Source of the DNA: Bacteroidota bacterium
Lineage (GTDB): Bacteria > Bacteroidota > Bacteroidia > Flavobacteriales > Flavobacteriaceae
DNA: 64,000 nucleotides
Assembly: GCA_027621175.1 (NCBI GenBank)
Contig: JAQCCM010000002.1
Span: 124,001 to 188,000, forward strand
Direction of reading: 5' to 3'
The notes beneath the pieces were generated by a model. The model was given only the letters and a program-made list of their open reading frames with translations. It did not search any database and was not told the DNA's origin. Shown here one piece after another: positions 13,979 through 16,675 of this stretch. Every line of letters starts with the position of its first letter. The stretch's first letter is position 1. Position numbers and translations under genes: made by a program.

Positions 13979-14464
13979 ATGAAAGTAGCTGTTATTATGG
14001 GAAGCAAAAGCGATCTTCCCGTCATGCAAGAAGCCATCGACACCTTAGCATTATTTGAAATAGACACGTTTGTTGATATTGTTTCTGCACACCGAACACC
14101 AGAAAAAATGATGCAATTTGCCACTACGGCACATAATAAGGACATTGATGTCATCATTGCGGGTGCGGGAGGCGCAGCGCATTTGCCCGGAATGGTAGCC
14201 TCTGCAAGTCCGCTTCCAGTGATTGGTGTTCCCGTAAAATCCTCCAACTCCATTGACGGTTGGGACTCTGTGCTTTCTATTTTACAAATGCCTGGCGGAG
14301 TACCTGTAGCTACAGTTGCGCTAAACGGCGCTAAAAATGCTGCACTGCTTGCGTGTCAGATTCTTGGTGTTAAAAACCCCGCACTAAGAGAAGCCATGAT
14401 TGCATACAAAGAATCCTTGGGAGAAAAAGTGCACCAAAGCGCAAAAGAACTCAATCAAAAATAA
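13979..14464 (+). CDS. purE: N5-carboxyaminoimidazole ribonucleotide mutase
   Basis: 161 residues, standard length for class I PurE. Motifs are MGSKSDLPVM near the start, SAHRTP (catalytic His), AGAGGAAHLPGM and the late PGGVPVATVA. It converts N5-CAIR to CAIR, the step after PurK encoded one base upstream. No terminator hairpin of usual type follows; the message would run into the hairpin repeats at 14.5 kb. Confidence 0.96.
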   Translation: MKVAVIMGSKSDLPVMQEAIDTLALFEIDTFVDIVSAHRTPEKMMQFATTAHNKDIDVIIAGAGGAAHLPGMVASASPLPVIGVPVKSSNSIDGWDSVLSILQMPGGVPVATVALNGAKNAALLACQILGVKNPALREAMIAYKESLGEKVHQSAKELNQK

Positions 14465-14519
14465 GCGTATTACTCATCGTTTAGCGAATGACTGAAATGA
14501 TCCTGAATTGAATCTGAAA

Positions 14520-14703
14520 CGAGTTCAGATTGACAAGGAGGTTGACAAACGGGATGACAAAGGATGACAAACGGGATGGACTCTGCCTGCTTGTCACACT
14601 GAACTTGTTTCAGTGTCACACTGATTCCGAAACAAGTTCGGAATGACAAACGGGATGGATTCTGTCTGGCATACTGAACCTGCCTACGGGAGGCAGGCTC
14701 GTT
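14520..14703. repeat. palindromic intergenic repeat block, left of the GIY-YIG gene
   Basis: The block holds several short hairpins: ACACTGAA/TTCAGTGT (14596-14616), ATTCCGAA/TTCGGAAT (14624-14644) and CCTGCCT/AGGCAGG (14679-14697). They are separated by variants of GATGACAAACGGGATG. Two units recur on the other side of the GIY-YIG gene: TGTCACACTGAACTTGTTTC and GGATTCTGTCTGGC followed by a TACTGAACCTGCCT variant. No gene is seen here apart from the last codons of the GIY-YIG ORF, which run up to the block's edge. Confidence 0.85.
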
Positions 14704-15012
14704 TCAGGGTCTCCCTAACGGTTTCCATAAATTATCCCAATTCGGATTACGCGCTTCTATCAAATTAATCTTCCACGCTCTGTGCCAGTTTTTTAATTGT
14801 TTTTCCCGAGCAATGGCATCCAATACATATTGAAATTCTTCAAAATACACCAATTGCTTTACATTGTACTTTGCCGTGAATTTACTGCCCTCGTTTCTCA
14901 TATGACGTTCCATACGATCATCTAGGCCTCCCGTAACGCCAATGTATAATGCACCTCGGGGTTTGTTAGCTAGGATATATACCCAGTAGTTGTGATAGTA
15001 ACGTTTCGCCAT
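14704..15012 (-). CDS. GIY-YIG nuclease family protein
   Basis: 102 residues. The GIY-YIG core is visible: VYILANKPRGALYIGVTG (the two Tyr-containing strands), the catalytic Arg in DDRMERH, and a Glu-bearing helix (AIAREKQLKNW). These single-domain proteins (UPF0213/COG2827 type) are common in Bacteroidota; cellular role is not settled. It is flanked on both sides by related hairpin repeats, and its last codons run into the left repeat block. The start is the ATG at 15012; upstream in-frame extension crosses repeat DNA and is rejected. Confidence 0.88.
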   Translation of the reverse strand: MAKRYYHNYWVYILANKPRGALYIGVTGGLDDRMERHMRNEGSKFTAKYNVKQLVYFEEFQYVLDAIAREKQLKNWHRAWKINLIEARNPNWDNLWKPLGRP

Positions 15013-15059
15013 GGAAGGGATGTTTGGGGTTGATTATAAATATAAGAGTTTTCGGTTTG

Positions 15060-15257
15060 ACGTGGGTGGATGGATTCTGTCTGGCGTACTGAACCTGCCT
15101 GCCATGCCCGTTCGGTTGAGGCGGGCGGCAGGCAGGCTTGTTTCAGTGTCTCGTTGATCCAGCATGTCACACTGAACTTGTTTCAGTGTCTCGTTGATCC
15201 TGAAATAAATTCAGGATGACATAGGATGACATAGGATGACAAGGAGATGACAAAACA
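15060..15257. repeat. palindromic intergenic repeat block, right of the GIY-YIG gene
   Basis: It contains a long perfect hairpin arm pair CCTGCCTGCC (15094-15103) / GGCAGGCAGG (15127-15136) with an inner GCCCG/CGGGC stem. A second copy of TGTCACACTGAACTTGTTTC with its ACACTGAA/TTCAGTGT hairpin lies near 15166-15191, and ATCCTGAA/TTCAGGAT near 15197-15216. A short tandem GGATGACATA (two copies plus degenerate ends) finishes the block. Units match the block left of the gene. Confidence 0.85.
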
Positions 15258-16145: not shown

Positions 16146-16499
16146 ATGGAGGCCTTACTACAATATGTACAGGACGAGTTTGTTCCCAAAAATGAATTTC
16201 CAAGCTTTCAGGCTGGAGATACCATCACTGTTTATTACGAAATTCGCGAAGGCGAGAAAGTAAGAACTCAGTTTTTCAAAGGAGTTGTTATTCAAATTAA
16301 AGGAAGCGGCGCAACCAAAACCTTTACCATCCGCAAAATGTCGGGTACGGTGGGTGTAGAGCGTATTTTCCCTTTGAATCTTCCGGGAATTCAAAAAATT
16401 GAGGTGAATAGCCGAGGAAAAGTACGTCGTTCGCGCATTTACTACTTCCGCAACCTTACAGGTAAAAAAGCACGTATCAAGGAACGTCAGTTTAAATAG
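16146..16499 (+). CDS. rplS: 50S ribosomal protein L19
   Basis: 117 residues, normal length. The L19 core is plain: PSFQAGDTITVYYEIREGEK, FKGVVIQIKGSG, FTIRKMSGTVGVERIFP, and the basic end RSRIYYFRNLTGKKARIKERQFK. It sits at the 30S/50S interface. It stands alone behind its own promoter. Its last 67 bases are repeated 176 bases downstream as a broken fragment. Confidence 0.97.
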   Translation: MEALLQYVQDEFVPKNEFPSFQAGDTITVYYEIREGEKVRTQFFKGVVIQIKGSGATKTFTIRKMSGTVGVERIFPLNLPGIQKIEVNSRGKVRRSRIYYFRNLTGKKARIKERQFK

Positions 16500-16593: not shown

Positions 16594-16675
16594 TTTAGTT
16601 CGTCATTAGCGCATTTACTACTTCCGCAACCTTACAGGTAAAAAAGCACGTTTCATGGAACGTCAGTTTAAATAG
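16594..16675 (+). pseudogene. partial duplicate of the rplS 3' end
   Basis: Bases 16609-16675 match 16433-16499 (end of rplS) at 65 of 67 positions, including the TAG stop. Upstream of that the match fades but continues at lower identity (GTTCGTCATTAG against GTACGTCGTTCG), now with an in-frame TAG. In frame the fragment would read RIYYFRNLTGKKARFMERQFK. There is no start codon, so it cannot make protein. It is a leftover of duplication or of recombination with a second rplS allele. Confidence 0.85.

Follow-up and report, generated by a model that had tools for sequence, protein, structure and literature searches.

The window, that is, the whole stretch of 64,000 nucleotides analysed here, contains a short gene for a stand-alone GIY-YIG nuclease lodged among hairpin repeats of matching sequence, which raises the question of whether this enzyme moves the hairpins that surround it. 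The question bears on the superfamily of CGTC-tagged REPs, which includes dRS3 of Neisseria and RPE-4 and RPE-6 of Rickettsia and whose members 'apparently lack a dedicated transposase' (Di Nocera et al., 2013; PMC3733652). How these REPs spread was unresolved in 2013, and a conserved partner gene makes the question testable at the bench. CGTC-tagged REPs are abundant in alpha-Proteobacteria, Neisseria, Rickettsia and Wolbachia, to which the present analysis adds Bacteroidota and other phyla; a meningococcal genome alone holds approximately 700 dRS3 (PMC3898611).

Hairpin repeats and nuclease gene of the window

The repeats on either side of the gene comprised a matched pair of 63 nt with 83% identity (family D2; copies at 14586..14648 and 15159..15221, both on the + strand), a second pair of 33 nt with 97% identity (14653/15068) and a third of 27 nt with 89% identity (14687/15126). 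Five intact hairpins shared a single architecture, namely an unpaired TGTC tag, an 8-bp stem opening with A-T and a 5-nt loop. They were arranged as two inverted dimers plus a further hairpin, TGTCAATCTGAACTCGTTTCAGATT, at 14511..14534 (-). The left dimer consisted of TGTCACACTGAACTTGTTTCAGTGT (14593..14616, +) and TGTCATTCCGAACTTGTTTCGGAAT (14624..14647, -), and the right dimer of TGTCACACTGAACTTGTTTCAGTGT (15166..15189, +) and TGTCATCCTGAATTTATTTCAGGAT (15197..15220, -). The first halves of both dimers were supported by repeat comparison and folding, and TGTCAATCTGAACTCGTTTCAGATT and TGTCATCCTGAATTTATTTCAGGAT by folding. When folded as single-stranded DNA, the five single hairpins had z values of -2.3 to -3.9, and the left dimer (14586-14650) had a z value of -5.2.

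Two further REPs were degenerate, and each carried a CCTGCCT...AGGCAGG palindrome within its loop. The left one (14671..14710, +) had lost its tag, enclosed the palindrome CCTGCCTACGGGAGGCAGG (14679..14697) and overlapped the last codons at the 3' end of the GIY-YIG gene. The one upstream of the gene (15086..15149, +; z -5.0) enclosed a long nested palindrome, CCTGCCTGCC...GGCAGGCAGG, at 15094..15136. An earlier note on this DNA had described repeats of the same sequence on both sides of the gene, a left block touching its last codons, and CCTGCCT hairpins. Each of these descriptions was borne out, the last of them in the loops of the two degenerate REPs, and the coordinates given were correct to within a few bases.

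A search of the window for CTGAAACAAGTTCAG with up to three mismatches returned 8 matches versus 2.6 expected, a number that none of 100 shuffles reached, and all matches with two or fewer mismatches fell at the GIY-YIG locus. Further, the pattern CCTGCCTN{2,30}GGCAGG matched 5 times versus 0.02 expected. A chance origin of the repeats was ruled out by the shuffles together with the tag specificity described below. The second palindrome (CCTGCCT...AGGCAGG and variants) was also inserted in several unrelated repeats, including a tRNA fragment. Apart from the two window sites (14679-14697 and 15094-15136), palindromes of this type were located at L003 1883-1902 and L045 1448-1474, and a variant lay near 1374 of L001, where it was present in one flank and absent from the copy in the other flank.

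Published CGTC-tagged REPs have a stem of 8-9 bp with A-T first and a loop of 4-5 nt, and the window hairpins fit their description in all but the CCA tail. The unpaired TGTC tag, the stem of 8 and the loop of 5 were present in 5/5 intact hairpins, and the inverted dimers are likewise a feature of CGTC REPs. The tails were not CCA but C plus ACA, AGT, TCG, AAC or AAT; a CCA tail, which many hairpins of the relatives possess, is no absolute criterion because 'most' of the published repeats fit it (PMC3733652). The window copies further differ from these REPs in being of a CTGAA-stem type, which is common in Bacteroidota, and in having a GIY-YIG gene as a consistent partner, whereas the published survey reports no associated transposase.

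The 300-bp GIY-YIG gene (14704..15012, -) encodes a single-domain protein of 102 aa (PF01541, E=4.6e-16) containing the motifs of the superfamily with the catalytic Tyr, Tyr, Arg and Glu. Its active-site residues Y12, Y23, R33, H37, E70 and N89 were intact, and these columns were invariant in alignment A1 and at least 98% conserved across 79 related loci. Such conservation of the catalytic positions among the 79 relatives indicates that an enzyme of the window type is probably active; activity on the hairpins is an inference. The best named relatives of the protein were from Flavobacteriaceae, from which the genome is inferred to be of Bacteroidota, and the nearest solved structures by profile were UPF0213 proteins. 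Like UPF0213/COG2827 proteins (YhbQ and YazA; PDB 1ZG2 and 1YWL), the window protein is a small, single-domain GIY-YIG protein, but tagged hairpins were absent from the flanks of E. coli yhbQ. It shares its catalytic domain and the character of a stand-alone mobile gene with free-standing GIY-YIG homing endonucleases of the I-TevI/Seg type, from which it differs in the lack of an intron and of phage matches, in being bounded by REPs and in having no separate DNA-binding domain within its 102 aa. Searches found no phage match and no defence-system or PHROG match. A phage origin of the GIY-YIG unit was rejected for want of a phage match.

Recurrence of the gene and hairpin pairing

Profile A1, built from 15 proteins, yielded 80 related loci, for each of which up to 10 kb was taken on either side. 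These loci were the top-scoring relatives for a single profile, and copies related to one another do not count as independent. A relaxed detector found a GTC-tagged hairpin within 300 bp of the gene in 78/80 loci and on both sides in 68/80, whereas hairpins flanked control positions 4-7 kb away on both sides in only 8-14 of 64-70. The background of this detector is higher than that of the strict one, which requires an A-T first pair and found hairpins in 66/80 loci (both sides in 50); the 14/80 loci missed by the strict detector carried GTC-tagged hairpins with a mismatched first pair. The hairpins nearest to the gene were mostly inverted with their tags outward (left, + 63 and - 24; right, - 74 and + 35).

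The density of perfect GTCA-tagged hairpins fell approximately 100-fold, from 5.1/kb within 150 bp of the gene to 0.05/kb at 7-10 kb, and when only non-coding DNA was considered it was 7.0/kb near the gene versus 0.48/kb far from it (approximately 15-fold). Ten other three-letter tags remained at or below 0.8/kb in every distance bin, without a peak. These densities bear on a purely structural role, in which the hairpins would act as ordinary intrinsic terminators or stabilise mRNA, would collect near small intergenic genes of any kind, and would have no relation to the nuclease, itself a host repair enzyme. The hairpins are indeed intergenic and plausibly transcribed, but the GTC tag alone was enriched and the ten other tags were not, even in non-coding DNA only. 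Further, no such hairpins were detected at 15 UvrC or long GIY-YIG loci of the genus, barring three chance matches at one position, or in the flanks of yhbQ, and the distribution of the GIY-YIG gene, which is multicopy with up to at least 12 copies per genome, is patchy. A structural role is therefore hardly credible.

The loci came from Bacteroidota, alpha- and gamma-Proteobacteria, Patescibacteria, Chloroflexi, a Leptospiraceae bacterium and Ignavibacteria. The pairing was also seen in Neisseria gonorrhoeae, where a GIY-YIG gene sits among nine CGTCATTCCC(N)GGGAAT hairpins, most of which match the dRS3 pattern ATTCCC(N8)GGGAAT (pattern from PMC3898611). The recurrence of gene and hairpins together in many phyla suggests that this GIY-YIG nuclease is the missing enzyme that spreads CGTC-tagged REPs.

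The type of hairpin varied with the lineage of the protein. Hairpin class changed 14 times on the protein tree, versus a mean of 30.3 and a minimum of 22 in 300 within-taxon label shuffles, and in Bacteroidota only it changed 5 times versus a shuffled mean of 11.1 (minimum 7). Mantel r between protein and hairpin distances was 0.32 overall, 0.39 in Bacteroidota and 0.26 in alpha-Proteobacteria (p<=0.002), and 0.185 between phylum groups (p 0.001). This covariation, a comparison of sequences alone, supports recognition of the hairpin by the enzyme. It is not proof, because the protein tree (93 columns) is poorly resolved and the signal owes part of its size to orthologous copies.

A further group of small GIY-YIG genes (L001, L019 and L020) was accompanied by different matched hairpins (TTCTCGATAC...; TGTCACTTCGAG...CTCGAGAAGT; GTCATTTCGAGCG...), several of which again carried the GTCA tag.

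Distribution of REPs across genomes

The genome of the window was searched over 1.73 Mb in 42 contigs. The core hairpin pattern (up to two mismatches) matched 13 times and the reversed pattern 0 times. Twelve of the matches look genuine, and 5/12 were within 1 kb of the window GIY-YIG gene, versus 0.016 expected. According to the earlier note, its reading would have been refuted by repeats spread everywhere without relation to GIY-YIG genes, and the outcome was the opposite. The remaining genuine hairpins formed dispersed dimers of approximately 80 bp on contigs C9, C28 (twice) and C41, with no adjoining GIY-YIG gene, and these correspond to a REPIN-like form. One dispersed dimer lay upstream of a umuD-like gene. 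Among the REP matches listed for seven genomes, 18/65 were within 1 kb of a listed GIY-YIG gene, versus 0.07 expected; as these are only 18 of 65, REPs are for the most part dispersed, with the gene as a focus.

The exact CTGAA-type REP was present in 69/396 genomes of the phylum at 1-175 copies, and the reversed control gave 0 in all of them. A related (P0001-like) GIY-YIG gene was found in 63/69 genomes with the exact CTGAA-type REP versus 173/327 without it (Fisher p 3e-10), in a test that ignores phylogeny and other stem types. REPs were present and the P0001-like gene was absent in G208, G059, G142, G274 and G123. Genome G346 (2.3 Mb, same phylum) harbored 175 exact CTGAA-type REPs in alternating arrays (loci L183-L212), and a search of this genome found no small GIY-YIG gene, only UvrC and DnaQ-type GIY-YIG. 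Its REPs without the gene fit a loss of the enzyme or an assembly gap at repeats, and they could also depend on another enzyme.

Another possibility is that a RAYT or another transposase moves the hairpins in trans, the GIY-YIG gene being cargo between two REPs. G346 does possess one weak Y1 match, approximately 5 kb from the closest of the REPs listed for its contig. However, no match to a Y1 transposase (PF01797) was found in the genome of the window, and G208 has none either. Further, transposases beside CGTC REPs were sought previously and only fortuitous cases were reported (Di Nocera et al., 2013; PMC3733652), and it is unlikely that the same cargo would be carried at almost every locus in so many phyla. 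We regard mobilisation in trans as very improbable; a RAYT acting in this way was rejected, there being no Y1 gene in the window's genome.

Empty sites, deleted derivatives and the proposed mobile unit

In the family of G288, the purK-purE junction was empty (14-121 bp, no REP) in six species, contained REP remnants or an inverted REP pair without the gene in two (G415 and G417), and contained REP-gene-REP in three (G288, G414 and G418). The simplest form was that of G418, which spans approximately 400 bp from REP to inverted REP and begins just past the purK stop codon. With inverted ends and presence/absence at one site, the unit fulfils one criterion for a transposable element. A target-site duplication was unreadable at the filled/empty pairs, the empty-site relatives being too diverged. 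At the site of the window, the closest sister (PurE 98%) lacked the whole 1.5 kb purE-to-rplS region, including a T9SS-type gene, and the boundary could not be read because the block was missing together with this neighbouring gene. Cassettes of GIY-YIG gene and REPs adjoined purE twice, at 14464-14704 of the window (after purE) and at L069 1336-1957 (purK-purE, distant family).

At L130, an intact REP-gene-REP unit came first and then a copy that shared its REP ends but had lost the middle of the gene; as judged from its sequence, this is an autonomous element beside its own deleted derivative. Gene fragments lay between REPs at L076/L045 and L131, and L080 contained a full tandem unit. An autonomous unit, inverted ends and internally deleted derivatives are also features of IS elements with MITEs, from which the present unit differs in that its ends are REP hairpins, its length is approximately 400 bp, it has no transposase and no target duplication was read.

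These structures also bear on the possibility that a free-standing GIY-YIG homing endonuclease invaded existing REPs, which would serve as its target and safe haven and provide homology for repair, the REPs themselves being spread otherwise. In the window, and often at related loci, the gene is found within a REP dimer or between two such dimers, and some genomes are rich in REPs but lack the gene. Other GIY-YIG clades in the same genus adjoin duplicated pieces of tRNA, which have the typical look of target duplication, and the covariation of hairpin and protein would fit a recognised target equally well. However, most purK-purE relatives are without any REP, the cassette comes and goes with its own REP ends, and internally deleted units retain both of these ends. 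Further, no other enzyme is known for CGTC REPs (PMC3733652). Homing into existing REPs is thus possible but unlikely.

The reading that we consider likely is that the locus is a REPtron-like mobile unit, the GIY-YIG enzyme of which recognises and moves its terminal REPs; the association and the derivative structure were observed directly, whereas enzymatic mobilisation is inferred. The locus resembles REP-RAYT (REPtron, TnpA-REP) in three respects: inverted tagged hairpins lie on either side of a small enzyme gene, non-autonomous dimers are dispersed elsewhere, and the enzymes are repeat-specific. It differs in its tag, which is GTC only and not that of GTAG-tagged REPs/REPINs, in its enzyme, which is GIY-YIG (PF01541) and not an HUH/Y1 tyrosine transposase, and in that the gene is often multicopy and not single-copy. 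The differences in enzyme and tag place the locus outside REP-RAYT, although it looks as if it works in the same way. The earlier note had proposed exactly such an arrangement with GIY-YIG in place of the Y1 transposase, and the proposal gained support from the pairing at 78/80 loci, its tag specificity and its covariation with the protein. The gene unit, gene-less derivative and empty site, and the lack of a Y1 match in the window's genome, supported it further.

In the proposed mechanism, the autonomous cassette would be a REP, the GIY-YIG gene and an inverted REP. The nuclease would recognise the GTC-tagged REP hairpin as a structure plus tag, the hairpin probably being extruded on single-stranded or cruciform DNA, and would cut there, after which the REP-bounded DNA would be copied into new sites. 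Internal deletion would then yield solo REPs and inverted REP dimers as non-autonomous derivatives. To our knowledge, GIY-YIG enzymes are hydrolytic nucleases without strand-transfer chemistry, and movement would therefore need cutting followed by host repair or recombination, with no strand transfer of the transposase type. Neither cutting nor movement was observed. Hairpin recognition, cutting and copying by host repair are inferred from the conserved catalysis, the likeness to UPF0213 and a grouping that places YhbQ of E. coli and YazA of B. subtilis with Slx1, a structure-selective nuclease (PMC7017083).

A wider reading, for and against which we see even chances, is that the whole GTC/CGTC-tagged REP superfamily, Neisseria dRS3 included, has stand-alone GIY-YIG nucleases as its dedicated mobilising enzymes. 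The unit of approximately 400 bp would then be among the smallest autonomous mobile elements in cells, and the partnership of REP and enzyme would have been invented a second time, with a different chemistry. GIY-YIG nucleases have until now been associated with homing, repair, restriction and Penelope-like elements; a GIY-YIG nuclease would join the enzymes that spread small hairpin repeats. Two unrelated nuclease folds are thereby seen to share one arrangement with tagged hairpins. No literature linking GIY-YIG to REP, dRS3 or CGTC repeats was found among open-licence PMC papers, and earlier reports elsewhere are possible.

Duplicated gene ends were seen at two places. At L155 (G000:C28, approximately 216300-217600), the 3' end of a flavin-reductase-like gene recurred after each of two REP dimers, as if a block of gene end and REP dimer had been tandemly duplicated. 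In the window, the 3' end of a ribosomal protein L19-like gene was duplicated 176 bp downstream (16421-16499 and 16597-16675; 79 nt, 94%). Other small GIY-YIG genes (L016, L017, L021, L032 and L003; genus genomes, G000:C28:52885) adjoined tRNA-Met, tRNA-Ala or tRNA-Arg, with partial tRNA copies on the opposite side, and at L017 and L032 the GIY-YIG stop codon lay inside the 5' end of the tRNA. These arrangements look like insertions into tRNA genes with regeneration of the tRNA.
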